From Acidihalobacter sp. (GTDB lineage: Bacteria > Pseudomonadota > Gammaproteobacteria > DSM-5130 > Acidihalobacteraceae): a stretch of 51,016 nt of DNA. Under the pieces are notes generated by a model. It saw only the letters and a program-made list of their open reading frames with translations, had not been told where the DNA came from and did not search any database. The number at the start of each line of letters is the position of its first letter. Positions within the stretch are counted from its first letter, which is position 1. The translations under genes and the position numbers were made by a program. The stretch covers positions 1 to 51,016 of the forward strand of contig JALUXU010000042.1 in NCBI GenBank assembly GCA_027013225.1, given 5' to 3'. This document shows positions 13,050 through 22,063 of the stretch, piece by piece.

Positions 13050-13620
13050 GCGTATGCCCGTTACGTTGAAATACGCCATAAGCCTCGTCGCGCAACCCCT
13101 TGCCGAGGTCGCCAAGCCGGCCTTCTTCTCGGTAAACGATGAGCCGCAAAGAAGAGAACAGTTCTGACAGCTCGTTCACACCCAGCCGATACTCACGTCG
13201 CCTAGGCCCTTTTTCAGGGTGGACGGCCTCACGAACGAAGGTTTGATAATACAACAAGCCGCCACAGCGCAAGGCGGCAGCGAGCGCCGGCGCCAGAGAT
13301 CGCTCCAGGAAGCGGCTGACGACGATCACATCCCAGCTTTCGGGCGCGGGAGGCAAATGGACAACGTCTCTCACCTCGGCGGTGATATCCAGGTTCTCCT
13401 TGGCGCTCGCCTCGCGCACCCTGGCGATGGCCTGGGGCGAGCGATCCCAGGCTCTCACTTTCAAGCCCTGCTTGGCCAGCAACAGAGCATTACCTCCCAA
13501 GCCGCAAGCCAAGTCCAGCGCCTCCCCTTGGAAGGGTAGCAAATGGGCGAAATCCTCCAGTACACGGGCGGGTTCGACTCGAAGTGTGAGATCGGCGTAG
13601 CGCTTGTCCCAGTCTGACAT
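13042..13620 (-). CDS. SAM-dependent methyltransferase (class I)
   Basis: A 192-residue Rossmann-fold methyltransferase resembling TehB-like and small-molecule methyltransferases. Motif I is ALDLACGLGGNALLLAKQG, motif II ends in the acidic residue of VRAWDRSP, and SWDVIVVSRFLER is motif IV. The substrate is not evident. The ATG at 13620 shares its A and TG with the TrkH stop (TGATG), a one-base overlap, so translation is likely coupled to the potassium-channel genes. An upstream TTG at 13632 is in frame but unlikely. Confidence 0.8.
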   Translation of the reverse strand: MSDWDKRYADLTLRVEPARVLEDFAHLLPFQGEALDLACGLGGNALLLAKQGLKVRAWDRSPQAIARVREASAKENLDITAEVRDVVHLPPAPESWDVIVVSRFLERSLAPALAAALRCGGLLYYQTFVREAVHPEKGPRRREYRLGVNELSELFSSLRLIVYREEGRLGDLGKGLRDEAYGVFQRNGHTHG

Positions 13621-15068
13621 CAGCTGCGCCAATACATCGGTGTAAATATGACCAGGAAGGTAAAGATCTCCAAGCGGCCGACGAGCATGGAAACGGAACA
13701 GATCCAGGTGGCCGCCTGGCTAATGTGCGCGAAGTTGGCCCCGACCTGGCCAAGCCCGGCGCCCATGTTGTTCAAACAGGCGGAAACGGCGGCAAAAGAA
13801 CTATACCAGTTCATGCCCGCGGCCATCAGGGCCAGCATGAAGAATAGATACACCAGAATATAGGCCGCCAGGAATCCCCAGATGGCGCTGACCACACGCT
13901 GGGGAAGAACGATATCATCCAGCTTGACAGGGATCTCGGCGCGCGGATGAAGGATGCGGCGGAACTCGCGGAAGCTCTGTTTGACCACAAGATAGACGCG
14001 CACCACCTTCATGCCTCCTGCCGTCGAGCCGGCGCTGCCGCCGATGATGGCGAGCATCATCAACAAGGTAGGCAGATACAAAGGCCAGGTACCGAAATTG
14101 GCGCTGGTAAAACCAGTACAGGTGATCACGGTGAGCACTTGGAAGGCACCATAGTTCAGAGCCGCGCCCAATGTGGAATAAGTATGGGTGAACAACAGCG
14201 TGAAACTCACCACCACGATGCTGACGGCAACGAAAGCCGTATACCAGCGGGCTTCCGCATCCGCCCAATAGACACTCAGGCGTCCCTTGCGCAAGGCCAT
14301 ATAATGTAAAGCGAAATTCATTCCCGAAAGGAACATGAATACATCGGCGATGCCGCTGATCGCGGGACTGTTCCAATAGGCGAAACTTGAATTGTGAGTG
14401 GCAAAACCACCAGTCGCCATGGTCGCAAAAGCCTGGCAGACAGCGTCATAAAACGTCATTCCAGCGGCCCAGAAGGCAAGTATGTTGACCACGGTCATGC
14501 CGACGTAGATCAACCAGAGTGCGCGCGCCGTGTCGGCGATCCTGGGGGTGAGTTTTTCATCCTTGAAGGGGCCGGGCGTTTCCGCCTTGAACATCTGCGA
14601 GCCGCCTACGCGTAACAACGGCAGAATCGCGATTGCGAGCACAATCAAGCCCATGCCGCCAAGCCAGTTGAGCTGCGCGCGATAATAGAGAATTGACTTG
14701 GGGACCGCATTCACATCGACAATGGTGGTGGCTCCGGTGGTGGTGAAACCGGATACCGCTTCGAACACAGCGTCCGCGAAATTCAGATGTGGGCTGAAAT
14801 GAAATGGCAGCGAGCTGGCTGCCGAGAGCACGACCCAGTAGAGAGTGACCAAAAGAAAGCCGTCACGACCCCGCAATTCATGGGTCGTATGGCGCACCGG
14901 CAGCCACATGACCAAACCAAGCGCCAATGTAACCAGAAATCCCTCAACGAAATGGATAGCCTGCCCGTCGTGGTAGATTAATGAAACCACTGCGGGCACC
15001 AACATGGTGAAACTGTAAGCGGCCACCAGAATGCCAAGCACACGCGAAACGGCCGCCAGCCTAGGCAT
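13620..15068 (-). CDS. trkH: Trk potassium uptake system membrane subunit TrkH, copy 2
   Basis: Potassium channel-like protein of the SKT superfamily, gated by the TrkA ring. The 482 residues form about ten membrane helices with four pore loops, recognisable as SGFTTTGAT, MATGGFATHN, TCTGFTSANFG and NNMGAGLG. Each carries the selectivity-filter glycine. It is a clear paralogue of the trkH just upstream: both have the blocks LNWLGGMGLIVLA or EWLGGMGIIVLA, and KLTPRIA(D/E)TA. The spacing between the two is three bases. Divergence between the copies is substantial, so the duplication is old. Confidence 0.95.
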   Translation of the reverse strand: MPRLAAVSRVLGILVAAYSFTMLVPAVVSLIYHDGQAIHFVEGFLVTLALGLVMWLPVRHTTHELRGRDGFLLVTLYWVVLSAASSLPFHFSPHLNFADAVFEAVSGFTTTGATTIVDVNAVPKSILYYRAQLNWLGGMGLIVLAIAILPLLRVGGSQMFKAETPGPFKDEKLTPRIADTARALWLIYVGMTVVNILAFWAAGMTFYDAVCQAFATMATGGFATHNSSFAYWNSPAISGIADVFMFLSGMNFALHYMALRKGRLSVYWADAEARWYTAFVAVSIVVVSFTLLFTHTYSTLGAALNYGAFQVLTVITCTGFTSANFGTWPLYLPTLLMMLAIIGGSAGSTAGGMKVVRVYLVVKQSFREFRRILHPRAEIPVKLDDIVLPQRVVSAIWGFLAAYILVYLFFMLALMAAGMNWYSSFAAVSACLNNMGAGLGQVGANFAHISQAATWICSVSMLVGRLEIFTFLVIFTPMYWRS

Positions 15069-15071
15069 TTC

Positions 15072-16523
15072 TCAGCGTCTCCAGAAGCCAGGGGTAAACA
15101 ACACCAAGGGCGTGAACACCTCCAACCGCCCGAAGAGCATTGCCAGGCACAGCAGCCACTTTGCGGCCGGATTGATATGGGCATAGTTCTCACCCACCGC
15201 ACCCAGACCCGGCCCCAAGTTGTTCATGCAGGCGGCCACGGCGGAAAATGCCGTAAGCTGGTTCAATCCCGTGGCCATGAGTGCCAACATGATGAGGCTG
15301 AACGTGGCCACGTAAGCGGCAAAAAAACCCCATACGGCATCGATGATACGATCATCCACGGGGCGGCGGCCGATCTTGACGGTAAATTCACCGTTTGGAT
15401 GAATCAGCCGATGCAATTCGCGCATTCCTTGCTTGAACAAAAGCACAAAGCGAACCACCTTGATGCCGCCACCGGTGGAGCCGGCACATCCGCCGATGAA
15501 ACTGGCGAACAATAATAGGGCGGGCAGAAAACCTGGCCAATGGTGAAAAGAGGTGGTGGTGAAACCCGTCGTGGTACCGATGGAAACCACCTGAAAAAGG
15601 CCCTGACGTAGATCCTCGCCGAAATTTCCGAAATAGCGCGTGAAATACAAGTAGCTCACGGCGATCAACGCCAGCAAACCAAGCACGGAAATATAGGTGC
15701 GGAATTCGGCGTCATCCCGATAGGGCATCAGACTGCGGCGGCTTAAGGCATAGTAATGCAAAGAGAAGTTCACGCCGCCCAAAAGCATGAATATGATGGC
15801 CACCGACTCGATCAAGGGGCTGTTGAAATACCCCATGCTGGCATCGTGCGGCGCGAATCCCCCCAGCGATACGGTCGCAAAACTGTAGGACACGGCATCG
15901 AAAACGTCCATGCCCGACAGCCAGTAGGCCAGCGCGCAGACAATGGTAAGGCCGAGGTAGATATACCATAGCGCCTTGGCTGTTTCGGCAATCCTGGGGG
16001 TAAGCTTGGCGTCCTTGACAGGCCCGGGAGCTTCCGCACGATAGAGCTGCATTCCACCAACGCCCAGCATGGGCAGTACCGCCACCGCCAGCACGATAAT
16101 GCCCATGCCGCCAAGCCACTCCAGTTCTTGACGATAGAACAAAATCGACTTGGGCAAAGCATCCAGACCGACGATGACGGTAGCACCGGTTGTGGTCAAT
16201 CCCGAGATCGATTCAAACACCGCATCGGTGATTGAAAGATGGGGGTGAGCCGCCAACGCTAGCGGAATTGCGCCGGCCAGGCCCAGCACAAGCCAAAACG
16301 AGACCGCCACGATGAAGCCGTCGCGTAATTTAAGATCACGCCGCTCGCGTCGTGCCGGCCACCACAACACAAGGCCGATGATCAAGACGGCTAGAAAACC
16401 TTCCAAGAAAGGCCGCACCCCGATATCGCCGTAGTACCATCCCACAAACGCGGGCGGCAGGAAGGTAAAGCTGAACACCGCCAGCAGCAAACCGAGAATG
16501 CGCTGAATGACTTTGGGTTGCAT
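15072..16523 (-). CDS. trkH: Trk potassium uptake system membrane subunit TrkH, copy 1
   Basis: The first of two tandem TrkH proteins, 483 residues, with four pore loops at SGLTTTGAT, VSLGGFAPHD, TTTGFTTTSF and NNLGPGLG. Family length and topology are normal. It directly follows trkA, with the TrkA stop and TrkH start sharing one base (TGATG). The second loop reads SLGGF where copy 2 has ATGGF. The two copies may therefore differ in ion affinity or gating, which is inference. Confidence 0.95.
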   Translation of the reverse strand: MQPKVIQRILGLLLAVFSFTFLPPAFVGWYYGDIGVRPFLEGFLAVLIIGLVLWWPARRERRDLKLRDGFIVAVSFWLVLGLAGAIPLALAAHPHLSITDAVFESISGLTTTGATVIVGLDALPKSILFYRQELEWLGGMGIIVLAVAVLPMLGVGGMQLYRAEAPGPVKDAKLTPRIAETAKALWYIYLGLTIVCALAYWLSGMDVFDAVSYSFATVSLGGFAPHDASMGYFNSPLIESVAIIFMLLGGVNFSLHYYALSRRSLMPYRDDAEFRTYISVLGLLALIAVSYLYFTRYFGNFGEDLRQGLFQVVSIGTTTGFTTTSFHHWPGFLPALLLFASFIGGCAGSTGGGIKVVRFVLLFKQGMRELHRLIHPNGEFTVKIGRRPVDDRIIDAVWGFFAAYVATFSLIMLALMATGLNQLTAFSAVAACMNNLGPGLGAVGENYAHINPAAKWLLCLAMLFGRLEVFTPLVLFTPGFWRR

Positions 16524-17905
16524 CAGACAAAAGTCACATCGACCGCAAATAACCGCTCGACATCGCCGATTCGCGACTTGTCCACGAGAAATAGGATGAC
16601 ATGATCGTCAGGCTCGACAACCGTGTCGCCACTTGCCATGATCACCTCGTCGCCGCGCACGATGCACCCGATGGTGGTGCCCTTGGGCAGATTGATCTCG
16701 CTGATCTTGCGGCCCACCACGCGCGAGGTGTGCTGGTCTCCATGCGCGACCACCTCGATCGCTTCGGCCGCGCCGCGCCGCAGGGAATGGACCGCTACGA
16801 TGTCGCCACGGCGCACATGCGTCAACAGCGCGCCGATGGTGATCTGCTGGGGGGAAATAGCCACGTCTATGGTGCTGCTCTCCAGAAGATCCACATAGGC
16901 CAGGCGGTTGACAAGCGACATCACTTTGCGCGCGCCCAGCCGCTTGGCCAGCATGGCCGAAAGAATGTTGGCCTCATCGTCGTTCGTCAGCGCACAGAAA
17001 ACATCTGTCGCATCAATGTTTTCCTCGAGCAGCAACTGCTCGTCGGCCGCATCTCCACGCAGCACAATGGCCCGGTCGAGCTCCTCCGAAAGCAGGCGCG
17101 CGTGTTCGGGATTGTGTTCTATGATCTTGACCTGATAACGATCCTCCAGCTTCTCCGCCACCCGTCGGCCGATATTGCCGCCACCGGCGATGATGATACG
17201 CTTGTTGGGCTTATCAAGCTTGCGCAGTTCGCTGGTGATGGCGCGGATATTTTTCTTCGAGGCGATGAAAAACACCTCGTCATCAGCCTCGATGATGGTA
17301 TCGCCCTGCGGGAAAATCGCCTTGCCACGCCGATAGATAGCCGCCACGCGGGTCTGAATGCCCGGCATATGTTCGCCCAAAGCGCGCAGCTCGTTCCCCA
17401 CCAGGGGGCCGCCATAATAGGCGCGCACCGCCACCAGCGAGACTTTGCCGTTAGCGAAATCGAGCACTTGTAAAGCACCCGGGTGTTCGATCAGTCGGCA
17501 AACGTAGTCAGTGACCAGATCTTCCGGCGCGATAAGCACATCTACCGGAATGGATTCCTGACTGAAAATATGAGGTTGTTGGAGATATTCCGCCGCCCGC
17601 ACGCGGGCAATCTTGGTGGGGGTTCGGAACAAGGTATAGGCGATTTGGCAGGCGATCATGTTGGTTTCATCGCTGCTAGTCACCGCGATAAGCATCTCGG
17701 CATCCGTGCCGCCGGCCTGCTCCAATATGTTTGGGTAGGCCGCATGTCCGGTGACGGTACGCAAATCCAGCCGATCCTGTAATTCCCGCAGCAGATCCGG
17801 ATGGGAATCCACTACAGTAACGTCATTGGCCTCGCTGGCCAAATGCTGCGCCACGGAACTGCCGACACGGCCCGCGCCCAAAACAATGATTTTCATGCGG
17901 CTCAA
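16523..17905 (-). CDS. trkA: Trk potassium uptake regulatory subunit TrkA
   Basis: Cytoplasmic nucleotide-binding ring subunit that gates TrkH in response to NAD(H) or ATP/ADP. The 460-residue protein has two RCK (TrkA_N plus TrkA_C) units in tandem. The first Rossmann motif is [13 protein letters not shown] near residue 9, the second [13 protein letters not shown] near residue 240. Each is followed by an acidic residue after strand two (VVDSHP, IIEHNP). ATG start, 38 bases downstream of ntrX. Co-direction with ntrYX fits the order seen in related bacteria. Confidence 0.96.
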
Positions 17906-17943: not shown

Positions 17944-19293
17944 TCATCGCTTGTGTCGATCCAATCTGGGATCAAGGCCCAATGCGCGCAGCTTGCGGTA
18001 CAAATGAGTTCGATCGACGCCTGACTGCTCGGCAAGGCGCGAAATATTACCATTAGTTTGATCCAACCAATAGAGCAAATAAGCCCGCTCGAACAGCTCG
18101 CGGGCTTCTTTGAGCGGCAACTGGAACAGTGCATCGTTCAGTGAATAGGAGGCGGCGAGACGGCGCTGCCCGAGCCGTTCCAGAGCCTCATCGACCCCCG
18201 GCACATCGATCTCATTCTCCGCACCCGTTGAGAGGAGCACGCGCAGCAATTCGATCAGTTCAGCGACATTCCCAGGCCAGTCGTAGCGGCGCAATCTATT
18301 CAGCGCTTTCGCACTGAAAGGACGAGGACGCAAATGTTCCGTCCGTTGCAATCGCTCGGCATGGTATTGCAACAGCTCGGGCACATCGGCGCCATGGTGC
18401 CGTAATGCTGGAACATGCACGCAGGAAGCGCCAAACCACGCCGCCAGACCCTGGGCCAAACGCCCTTCCTTCACCAGATCCGCCGGTTCGCGATCTTCAT
18501 CTATTAGCGCCATAACACGCACGTCAACAGAGGGCCAAGCCACCCCCTCCAAAAGTCTTAACAACTGCAATTGCTCTTGTGGAGAAAGATGTAACAACTC
18601 GCCAAGACACAGCAAGCCTCCATTAGCAACACGAATCACCTCATCCGGCCCATTTGCGCTGTCATGCGCCTCATCCAGATGCAAAACACTCGCCCACCGA
18701 GCCTCGCTCAAATCGACAACGGGCCCGTTTCGGCGCGGACTTGCAGCGTGAATGTAGCGCATGAGCGCGTGGCGGCCCGCACCAGGCTCGCCACAAATCA
18801 ACAGCCGATCATGGCGCATCGCCAAGCGGCGCGCCTGCTCACGCAAACCGCGCATGACCGGACTCGAACCGATCAGTTGCGAATCACCGCCTTCTTCCGA
18901 GAGGCCTTTCGAGCCACTCGCGGGCCGTCGAGCATCGAGCGCACGGCGCACAGTCACCAACAAGCGCTCCATGGACAAGGGTTTTTCTATGTAATCGAAG
19001 GCACCCTGCCGAATCGCCTCCACGGCGGTTTCGACCGTGCCATGACCGGACATCATGATTACCGAGAAGGCCGGCGTGCCATTTGTATTCCATTGTTTGA
19101 GCAGGCTCACGCCATCTTCGTCTGGCATCCAGATATCGAGCAGCACCACGTCTGGTGCGCGCCTAAAAACAGCAGTGCGCGCCTCGGCCGCATTCGCGGC
19201 CACTTCGACCGCATAGCCTTCATCTTCGAATATTTCCCGCAACAATCCCCTGATTTCGGGTTCATCATCCACCACCAGCAGTCGCCGTTCCAT
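17944..19293 (-). CDS. ntrX: NtrX-type response regulator with degenerate AAA+ domain
   Basis: Response regulator partner of the NtrY kinase. The 449 residues comprise a receiver domain, an AAA+ region (about 141-380) and a Fis-type helix-turn-helix (NISRLAEQSGVDRTHLYRKL). The receiver is intact: DDE, phosphoacceptor Asp in LLDIWMPDEDG, MSGHGT, and Lys in IEKPLS. The AAA+ part is decayed. Walker A reads GEPGAGRH with Arg for the key Lys, the GAFTGA loop is absent, Walker B reads LLCLGEL with Gly for Asp, and GNVREL reads GNVAEL. It should not hydrolyse ATP or open sigma-54 promoters, but could still bind DNA. Start overlaps the ntrY stop by one base. Confidence 0.9.
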   Translation of the reverse strand: MERRLLVVDDEPEIRGLLREIFEDEGYAVEVAANAAEARTAVFRRAPDVVLLDIWMPDEDGVSLLKQWNTNGTPAFSVIMMSGHGTVETAVEAIRQGAFDYIEKPLSMERLLVTVRRALDARRPASGSKGLSEEGGDSQLIGSSPVMRGLREQARRLAMRHDRLLICGEPGAGRHALMRYIHAASPRRNGPVVDLSEARWASVLHLDEAHDSANGPDEVIRVANGGLLCLGELLHLSPQEQLQLLRLLEGVAWPSVDVRVMALIDEDREPADLVKEGRLAQGLAAWFGASCVHVPALRHHGADVPELLQYHAERLQRTEHLRPRPFSAKALNRLRRYDWPGNVAELIELLRVLLSTGAENEIDVPGVDEALERLGQRRLAASYSLNDALFQLPLKEARELFERAYLLYWLDQTNGNISRLAEQSGVDRTHLYRKLRALGLDPRLDRHKR

Positions 19294-21515
19294 CAGCTTT
19301 CTCCCTGTTTTTCATTGCGCTCCGGCGCGAGGCCATGCCGCGGCAATAAAATCACGAAACGCGCACCTTCAGTGTTACCGTTTTCCGCAAAGACCCGTCC
19401 ATTGTGTTCTTCGACGATTTTCTTAACCACAGCCAATCCAAGACCCGTACCCCCCAGTTTATGACTCACATAGGGCTGGAAAAGACGGGGAAACCATTCG
19501 GCGCTTATACCTGGTCCATTATCGCTCACACTCAATTCGACATAACCGACCTCCCCATTTTCCGCCACCACCACGCGAGTGGCCACCTCGACCCTGGGTT
19601 GCGGTTGAGCCGCACAGGCTTCGATCGCATTCTTGATCAGATTATTCAACAGTTGCCGCATGCGATTGGGATCGACGACCATCAACCCCACCTGCTTATC
19701 GGGTTGAAATTGCAGCGTGATGTCGGCTTGGGCCCTGTACAGCTCGACGACGCTTTCAACCAGCGCATTGAAGTCCACCTCCTGCGGCTGCATGGCGGGC
19801 GCGCGCGCATAATCGCTGAAAGCCGTCACCAGTTGCTGCATCGCTTCGACTTGCGCGACGATGGTATCGGTGGCGCGGATCAAGATCCGTCCGTCCTCAC
19901 CCGCAAGCTGAGGCAACAACTTGCGACGCAACCGTTCAGCCGACAATTGGATTGGGGTCAATGGGTTGCGGATTTCATGGGCAAGGCGCCTGGCCACCTC
20001 GCCCCAAGCGGCATTGCGTTGCGCAAGGATCAAGGCCGTGACGTCATCGATAAGCAGCACATGCCCTCCCCCCGACGATTCGGGCAAACGCGCGCCTTTG
20101 CAGATCAGCATCTTCACGCCGGTTCCTCCAAACAACTCGAGCTCTATTTCCCAAGTCTCTTCGTTTGCGTCGAGGCGAGGTTCGACAGCCCGGTACAGCT
20201 GATGCAGAAGCCCCGCATGCTCCCCCACATCCGCCAAGCGACGGCCAAAAAAAGGCTTCAAGGGTTGCTCAAGAATCGCATCCGCGGATGGATTAGCGGT
20301 ACGTAGAACGGCATTTCGATCCAGGGTGAGCACGCCCGGCGATAAATGCTCCAGAACGGTTTGCAAATGGCCTCGCTGGCGCTCCAGTTGACGCCGGGCG
20401 CGCTCAGTTTCCTCGCGGGCATGGGCAAGACGCCTGGTCATTTCATTGAAAGACCGCGCCAACAGCCCCACCTCGTCCCGTCGCCTGGCATCCAGCTTGG
20501 TTCCAAGATCTCCTTCGGCCACCCGCCTGATCGCATCGATAAGCTGACGCACCGGCCGCAACACTCTGCGCGCCAGCACGAAAGAAGCCCACAGCGCCGA
20601 CAGCACCGACAGCAAGAGCACCATGGAAAGCGTCAGCGTAAAGCTTTGCATGAGTGGGACGCGCAAGAACACCAGCTCGCGATAGCGGTTATAGGCGTCC
20701 TGCACATTGGCCGCGAGTGCGCTGTTTCGCGCATCGATGCCAAAGATTGCCTGCAACATTTCCGATCCGCCAGTCACCTTCACACTATCGGCCGGTGGCG
20801 GAACTGGCACCAGGATGCGGATCAGCAAATGCTGGCCTGAGCTCGGTTCCAAAGCGGCATAATGATGCGCGCGCGCGTATTCACGCAGCGCACTCGGCGG
20901 GGGGAGGCTGGGAACCAGCATGCTCAAGCTGCCTCCACTCGTCGCCAAAATGGCCTGGTTGCGGCCAAACAGGGTCAGCTCGGAGGCCTTGAGACGACGA
21001 CGCAAGCTCCCAAGTTTTTGCGGCAGCCGCAGGGGATCGATACCACTCAGACTTTGCGCGCCTTCTTCTGTCTGCCGCAAAAGATCATTGACCCGATCCT
21101 GCAATGACGATCGCGCCAGCACCAAAGCATCATCGAGCGCGCGTTCTATACGCACGTTGAACCAACTATTGATGCCGTTTTCGAGAAACCGCAGGGAAAA
21201 AGCGAATACGACGAAAACCGGGATGAATGAGAGCAGTACAAACACCCCGGCCAAGCGCAGAGTGAGCCGGGCCCCCGGATCTCGGCGCAAGCCCCGGCGT
21301 ATCATCTCGATCACATTGGCGACGACCAGAATGGCCAACAGCAACAAAACTGCGGCGTTGAAGATCAGAAGCCAAAAATAATGGCTACCGAACCGCTGCG
21401 AGTTCTGCACCGCATCCGACATCAGCACCACGGCGACCAGCGTCAGAGCGATGAGCGCCACCACGGGCCAGACGCGAAATGAAAAATGTCTTAACGCAAA
21501 TCGCATCGAAACCAT
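19293..21515 (-). CDS. ntrY: NtrY-type sensor histidine kinase
   Basis: Membrane histidine kinase of 740 residues. Three N-terminal hydrophobic helices are followed by an extracytoplasmic region (about 115-280), a further helix, a HAMP segment (PVRQLIDAIRRVAEGDL) and a PAS domain. Next come the phosphoacceptor site (RLAHEIRNPLTPIQLSAERL, near residue 510) and an HATPase domain with N, G1 and G2 boxes (NLIKNAIEA, DNGPGI, GTGLGLA). All catalytic motifs are intact, in contrast to the decayed AAA+ domain of its partner. The start is at 21515 or 21506; both overlap the previous gene. The signal is unknown. The NtrYX family is tied to nitrogen, redox or envelope control in other bacteria. Confidence 0.93.
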   Translation of the reverse strand: MVSMRFALRHFSFRVWPVVALIALTLVAVVLMSDAVQNSQRFGSHYFWLLIFNAAVLLLLAILVVANVIEMIRRGLRRDPGARLTLRLAGVFVLLSFIPVFVVFAFSLRFLENGINSWFNVRIERALDDALVLARSSLQDRVNDLLRQTEEGAQSLSGIDPLRLPQKLGSLRRRLKASELTLFGRNQAILATSGGSLSMLVPSLPPPSALREYARAHHYAALEPSSGQHLLIRILVPVPPPADSVKVTGGSEMLQAIFGIDARNSALAANVQDAYNRYRELVFLRVPLMQSFTLTLSMVLLLSVLSALWASFVLARRVLRPVRQLIDAIRRVAEGDLGTKLDARRRDEVGLLARSFNEMTRRLAHAREETERARRQLERQRGHLQTVLEHLSPGVLTLDRNAVLRTANPSADAILEQPLKPFFGRRLADVGEHAGLLHQLYRAVEPRLDANEETWEIELELFGGTGVKMLICKGARLPESSGGGHVLLIDDVTALILAQRNAAWGEVARRLAHEIRNPLTPIQLSAERLRRKLLPQLAGEDGRILIRATDTIVAQVEAMQQLVTAFSDYARAPAMQPQEVDFNALVESVVELYRAQADITLQFQPDKQVGLMVVDPNRMRQLLNNLIKNAIEACAAQPQPRVEVATRVVVAENGEVGYVELSVSDNGPGISAEWFPRLFQPYVSHKLGGTGLGLAVVKKIVEEHNGRVFAENGNTEGARFVILLPRHGLAPERNEKQGES

Positions 21516-22063
21516 TTACTGGCCGGGCGCCAACTGGCATCCAGGTAAGAACGAATTCGCAACGGCAAGGGCAAGGCCGCCGCGCTGATCCGCACCCGCA
21601 GATCAACAAACAGCGGCCTTTCGGGCAGCAACAAACTTTGATCGATCAGCGGAAAATCCTGAAGCCGGCCGATACGCTGCAAAGCCTGTGAAAGCGACCA
21701 ATAGCTGTGACTCACGCCGCTATTGAGATCATCCACCCGATACCGCTGGGACAAGGGCTGGTAACGCAATCGATAGCGTGTGGAAAGAGAGGCCAAGGTG
21801 TTGTCGAACCACCACCCGTGGGGTCGCATGATACGAATATCCCACACGAATACCAGACCCACTCCATTCTGCAAGGCGCTGGCAAGGTTTCCATCCAGGC
21901 GCAATTTCGCCTTGGCGTCGAGATAATAAACCTGATGACGCTCGAAAACGTGAGCCGAGGAAATTACAAAATCCGGAGCCGATGCCGCCTGTGCGCCCAA
22001 TGAAAACAGCAGGCCCAGCCAGAGCGTAAGTAATCGCCATTGCCGCTTCACCTCCAGATTCAC
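21491..22063 (-). CDS. DUF4390 exported protein
   Basis: A 190-residue protein of unknown function in the DUF4390 family, which commonly sits between rsmB and ntrY in gammaproteobacteria. An N-terminal signal peptide is visible (LLTLWLGLLFSLGAQAASA), so it should be periplasmic or envelope-associated. The mature part is beta-rich, with conserved YYLDAKAKLRLDG, YRLRYQPLSQRYRV and a C-terminal SYLDASWRPAS. The GTG start at 22063 overlaps the rsmB stop (GTGA) and has a strong AAGGAG five bases upstream. Its location suggests it could feed the NtrY sensor, which is inference. Confidence 0.85.
   Translation of the reverse strand: MNLEVKRQWRLLTLWLGLLFSLGAQAASAPDFVISSAHVFERHQVYYLDAKAKLRLDGNLASALQNGVGLVFVWDIRIMRPHGWWFDNTLASLSTRYRLRYQPLSQRYRVDDLNSGVSHSYWSLSQALQRIGRLQDFPLIDQSLLLPERPLFVDLRVRISAAALPLPLRIRSYLDASWRPASKWFRCDLR

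Follow-up and report, generated by a model that had tools for sequence, protein, structure and literature searches.

Organization of the ntrYX locus

The window analysed here, a 51,016-nucleotide stretch of an Acidihalobacter sp. contig (JALUXU010000042.1), carries a one-strand gene cluster comprising fmt, rsmB, a DUF4390 gene (plrP), ntrY, ntrX, trkA and two trkH genes. The arrangement is kept in the window's family (termed f1) and is largely kept across the class, except for the second trkH. The relevant features are as follows.

16523..17905, minus strand: trkA, conserved downstream neighbour (profile match and synteny)
17944..19293, minus strand: ntrX, 449 aa, receiver, degenerate AAA+ and Fis-type HTH (single open frame, no stop)
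17965..18132, minus strand: Fis-type HTH, residues 388-443 (Pfam HTH_8; recognition helix nearly invariant)
18178..18405, minus strand: AAA+ lid, residues 297-372, conserved (Pfam AAA_lid_14; low dN in closest relatives)
18256..18273, minus strand: sensor II remnant GNVAEL, residues 341-346, Arg to Ala344 (alignment)
18406..18879, minus strand: degenerate AAA+ alpha/beta core, residues 139-296 (Pfam, alignment, model)
18433..18459, minus strand: lost arginine fingers, LAQGLAAWF, residues 279-287 (alignment)
18598..18612, minus strand: Walker B remnant LCLGE, residues 228-232, Asp to Gly231 (alignment)
18646..18684, minus strand: region lacking the GAFTGA (L1) loop, residues ~204-216 (alignment and model)
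18769..18792, minus strand: Walker A remnant GEPGAGRH, residues 168-175, Lys to Arg174 (alignment)
18928..19287, minus strand: receiver domain, residues 3-122 (Pfam, 101 bits)
19135-19137, minus strand: codon of phospho-acceptor Asp53 in the receiver (Asp kept in 206/206 NtrX)
19293..21515, minus strand: ntrY, 740 aa kinase with HAMP, PAS, HisKA and HATPase (Pfam; catalytic boxes intact)
21491..22063, minus strand: DUF4390 protein, PlrP family, proposed third NtrYX component (PF14334, 143 bits; PMC13001219)
22060..23385, minus strand: rsmB, conserved upstream neighbour (profile match and synteny)

Several observations identify the ntrX product as a member of the NtrX family. It combines a receiver carrying the phospho-acceptor aspartate with an AAA+ domain and a Fis-type HTH, and its gene adjoins ntrY, with rsmB and the DUF4390 gene upstream. 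In gene trees the protein nests among 204 NtrX sequences, with eight bEBPs from the same genome as outgroup, and its best PDB match is an NtrX. The NtrX equivalog NF051870 (NCBIfam) is the top model at 301 bits, below a curated cut-off of 600 bits that is an annotation threshold and no biological feature. The Pfam Sigma54_activat match is weak, reaching 46 bits over only 1-119 of 168 positions. ARAGORN additionally predicts a minus-strand tRNA-Phe at 18848-18943, inside ntrX; this call is absent from the Rfam results and is almost surely a false positive.

An earlier note on this DNA described the receiver and HTH as intact, and both domains are indeed recognized by Pfam, with Asp53 and the recognition helix DRTHLYRKLRALG retained on sequence comparison. 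The partner kinase NtrY was likewise said to possess all catalytic motifs, and its four boxes are present: HEIRNP (with His513), NLIKNA, DNGPGI and GTGLGL. HEIRN is a motif type of kinases that double as phosphatases. For Bordetella, it has been proposed that PlrP is a third component and restrains the phosphatase activity of PlrS, and phosphorylated PlrR is reported to be essential (PMC13001219).

Loss of AAA+ motifs

Alignments reveal that the central domain has lost more than the four motifs listed previously. The GAFTGA loop is replaced by a shorter stretch of unrelated residues. The Walker A motif retains its glycine-rich loop (GxxGxG) and carries Arg174 in place of lysine, while in Walker B the glutamate (Glu232) is retained and the neighbouring aspartate is replaced by Gly231. 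Relative to an NtrC-type protein encoded in the same genome, GNVREL of sensor II has become GNVAEL. These four losses are as the earlier note had them, but its list was short, as sensor I is also altered and both arginine fingers are gone (LAQGLAAWF rather than FRQDLYYRL, with Ala280 and Trp286). Among the features of a bEBP, the protein thus lacks the GAFTGA loop, the Walker A lysine, the Walker B aspartate, the arginine fingers and the sensor II arginine, and has the AAA+ fold in a predicted model. By sequence, it is predicted to be unable to remodel sigma-54 polymerase, as had been proposed. In principle, the lysine-to-arginine change in Walker A might still permit weak nucleotide binding.

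A sequencing error can be rejected as the source of these changes because five genomes agree. The four other genomes of the window's family show the same losses, including the Walker A arginine and Walker B glycine, and in the four closest relatives nearly all of the Walker A lysine, Walker B aspartate, sensor II arginine and arginine fingers are lost. The window genome, at 2.27 Mb and 99.97% complete, does encode rpoN, a check that the earlier note had suggested. It also encodes eight other full-scoring bEBPs, every one of which carries GxFTGA, the Walker A lysine, the Walker B aspartate and the sensor II arginine. With rpoN and eight intact bEBPs in the same genome, the organism has its sigma-54 machinery and only NtrX has decayed, which eliminates both an absent rpoN and a general decay of bEBPs as causes.

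The genome of the window is smaller than those of its genus and family mates (3.4-3.6 Mb), which suggests genome reduction. A 16S rRNA gene was not found in its assembly.

Graded loss across the NtrX family

We compared 204 full-length NtrX proteins, gathered through sequence similarity and through synteny with DUF4390 genes; two additional short forms bring the set to 206. The phospho-acceptor aspartate is present in all 206 proteins (204 full-length and two short), and GAFTGA in 0/204 full-length representatives. Residues of the ATPase site are lost to different extents: the Walker A lysine is retained in 165/204, the sensor II arginine in 155/204, arginine finger 1 in 154/204, the Walker B aspartate in 83/204 and arginine finger 2 in only 44/204. 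All five of these residues occur together in 15 of the 204 proteins, and 11 have none.

Gene trees from alignments stripped of either the motif columns or the AAA+ core require at least 18-19 changes in Walker A, 29-32 in Walker B and 25 in finger 2; these are quick FastTree trees with long branches, and the counts are undated parsimony minima that do not distinguish loss from regain. Loss of ATPase residues therefore appears from these sequences to be a recurrent, graded trend of the NtrX family rather than a singular event, and the window protein is an independent, extreme case of it. Since GAFTGA is absent from every full-length protein, NtrX left sigma-54 long before the window lineage arose. 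With this loss ancestral, there is no evidence of rewiring in the window lineage, contrary to one part of the earlier claim that the pathway was rewired and not lost.

The five members of the window's family, including the window protein, form one clade (support 99-100), and these group with two Ectothiorhodospiraceae-like sequences, L099 and L247 (7 rows, support 97). Both sister sequences retain the Walker A lysine and arginine finger 1, which suggests that loss towards the window's family may have been stepwise. The same grouping disfavours a single loss common to this family and beta-proteobacteria. A second NtrX clade, composed of L070, L073, L078 and L138, has likewise lost all five ATPase residues (GEEGxGR; FFQN or FFEN).

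Dead and deleted domains in a presumed beta-proteobacterial order

Beta-proteobacterial NtrX has been reported to lack the AAA+ domain (PMC13001219). We surveyed 60 genomes from a single order, that of genome G111, whose own NtrX is AAA-less; the order is presumed to be beta-proteobacterial, judging from the relative Ferrovum (L083) and the shared GTDB class. Most of these genomes encode a full-length NtrX of ~420 aa; in 15 of them, roughly a quarter, NtrX is a short form comprising only receiver and HTH. Of 39 full-length proteins retrieved from the order (L272-L310), 32 keep none of the five ATPase residues and 7 keep one, whereas the short proteins retrieved span 211-248 aa. The domain-deleted relatives retain receiver and HTH and have the same NtrY and DUF4390 neighbours. 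Because full-length proteins of this order keep at most one ATPase residue, deletion of the domain seems to follow its death. The published statement fits the short forms only, and is refined here in that most genomes of the sampled order keep the AAA+ domain in dead form.

These data are compatible with a tentative scenario, to which we give somewhat less than even odds, of convergent stepwise AAA+ loss in beta- and gamma-proteobacterial NtrX. The contact loop would have disappeared at or near the root, the ATPase residues many times independently and finally the domain, with the dead domain persisting in many lineages as a scaffold that lacks catalysis but plays its own regulatory part. The first and last steps, loss of GAFTGA and of the domain, were already known, the former from Caulobacter NtrX and NtrC (PMC10274813); of greater interest is the graded decay that recurs between these two steps. 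A single orthologous regulator within a conserved cluster offers a natural series from complete to dead to deleted, which makes the role of an AAA+ domain cut off from sigma-54 directly testable. Annotation as a "sigma-54-dependent activator" is wrong for the window protein, as far as its sequence tells, and probably for most beta/gamma NtrX.

Selection and predicted structure

Of all parts of the protein, the AAA+ core evolves fastest, yet it is under purifying selection. Pairs of window-family proteins with L014 or L015 share 39-50% identity in the AAA+ core versus 71-80% in receiver and HTH. Among the closest trio (L016-L018), dN/dS values are 0.09-0.19 for the AAA+ core, 0.03-0.09 for the receiver, 0.03-0.08 for the lid and 0-0.03 for the HTH. 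The ratio of AAA+ to receiver dN climbs with motif loss, from 1.8 in motif-rich pairs through 2.5 to 3.7 in the motif-poor class, which comprises only 8 non-independent pairs.

An AlphaFold2 model of the window protein (mean pLDDT 89) contains the complete set of AAA+ strands and helices, with a short loop replacing L1, and predicts that the fold is retained. Its top fold matches are Brucella NtrX structures 5m7p/5m7n (E 8e-34, VIA Z 25), followed by NtrC1/NtrC4 and the AAA+ domains of FleQ and FlrC (Z about 22 for NtrC1, FleQ and FlrC). The full-length matches also include VpsR and FleQ.

Proposed function of the degenerate regulator

We favour, with a probability of roughly 75%, an NtrX whose AAA+ domain is a pseudo-ATPase and whose DNA binding at ordinary (non-sigma-54) promoters is switched by phosphorylation of Asp53. 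NtrY, together with the periplasmic DUF4390/PlrP protein, would set the phosphorylation state of Asp53, which would in turn control dimerization and binding of the Fis-type HTH to palindromic sites. Binding alone would then activate or repress transcription, and the AAA+ remnant and lid would serve as a spacer and dimer scaffold that neither binds nor hydrolyses ATP.

Phosphorylation-switched, ATP-free DNA binding is favoured because of the parts that are retained, experiments on alpha-proteobacterial NtrX and the existence of natural domain-less orthologues; on these grounds the repressor or activator envisaged by the earlier note remains the best reading. In S. meliloti, Asp53 phosphorylation is required for NtrX to bind CAAN2-5TTG (PMC9223101), and R. 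sphaeroides NtrX is an activator and possibly a repressor (PMC7240162). Our literature search found no biochemical data on the window protein or on any gamma-proteobacterial NtrX.

Other explanations give the AAA+ remnant a ligand. It may have been recruited to bind another molecule, such as c-di-GMP, which would let the regulator combine two signals. Retention of the fold under purifying selection and the presence among the full-length fold matches of VpsR and FleQ, AAA+ activators that answer to c-di-GMP, are consistent with this idea, but a core that evolves faster than any other part of the protein is unlike what a conserved new pocket would be expected to produce, and we consider such recruitment unlikely. 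Alternatively, ATP could be bound weakly through Arg174 as a structural cofactor, without hydrolysis. Such a mode is reported for R. capsulatus NtrC, which at sigma-70 promoters requires ATP binding but not hydrolysis (PMC10274813). The retained GxxGxG loop and the crystallization of Brucella NtrX with ATP and ADP are in keeping with this proposal; however, the Walker A lysine, Walker B aspartate, sensor II arginine and arginine fingers are lost, nearly all of them in four relatives as well, and this makes a nucleotide cofactor improbable.

It might also be argued that ntrX is without function and in an early stage of decay, given that every checked catalytic residue of the AAA+ core is lost. 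This is very unlikely, as the frame is open in five genomes, the syntenic cluster is kept, dN/dS is far below 1 in every measurable domain and the HTH is nearly invariant. Purifying selection shows that the gene is maintained, and the earlier note is borne out on the intact motifs of the kinase.

Comparison with known systems

Pseudo-ATPase NtrX as proposed here has parallels among characterized proteins. Brucella abortus NtrX (PDB 5m7n, 5m7o, 5m7p) belongs to the same family, has the same receiver-AAA+-HTH architecture and also lacks GAFTGA, but keeps the Walker A lysine, Walker B aspartate, both arginine fingers and sensor II arginine, none of which is present in the window protein. Bordetella PlrR and the Herbaspirillum-type beta NtrX share with the window the cluster of rsmB, DUF4390/PlrP and an NtrY-type kinase, as well as an aspartate-bearing receiver, a Fis-type HTH and the lack of an ATPase; their AAA+ domain is reported absent (PMC13001219), whereas that of the window protein is present but dead. 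Caulobacter and R. capsulatus NtrC are likewise NtrC-family proteins without the sigma-54 contact loop and act at sigma-70 promoters, but, in contrast to the window protein, retain their Walker motifs and depend on binding or hydrolysis of ATP (PMC10274813). Vibrio VpsR and VspR and Pseudomonas FleQ have an NtrC-family fold and, as proposed for window NtrX, stand outside the standard sigma-54 route. VpsR and FleQ answer to c-di-GMP, whereas window NtrX is not known to have a ligand.

Candidate binding sites and the trkH pair

The reported NtrX site pattern GCAN9TGC shows no excess in the window, and neither does GCAAN5TTGC with one mismatch allowed; both occur there below chance. CAAN2-5TTG occurs 54 times in the window versus ~34 expected from base composition, an expectation that ignores dinucleotides, and this possible excess is a lead only. 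Four CAAN2-5TTG palindromes lie in the 3′ half of ntrY (19647-19968). The plrR promoter of Bordetella sits in the 3′ end of plrS.

Downstream of trkA, a tandem pair of trkH genes (window 13620-16523) is present in five of five genomes of the window's family. In L129, L130, L137 and L142 both trkH genes match one single place, and the tandem is probably a lineage-specific duplication.
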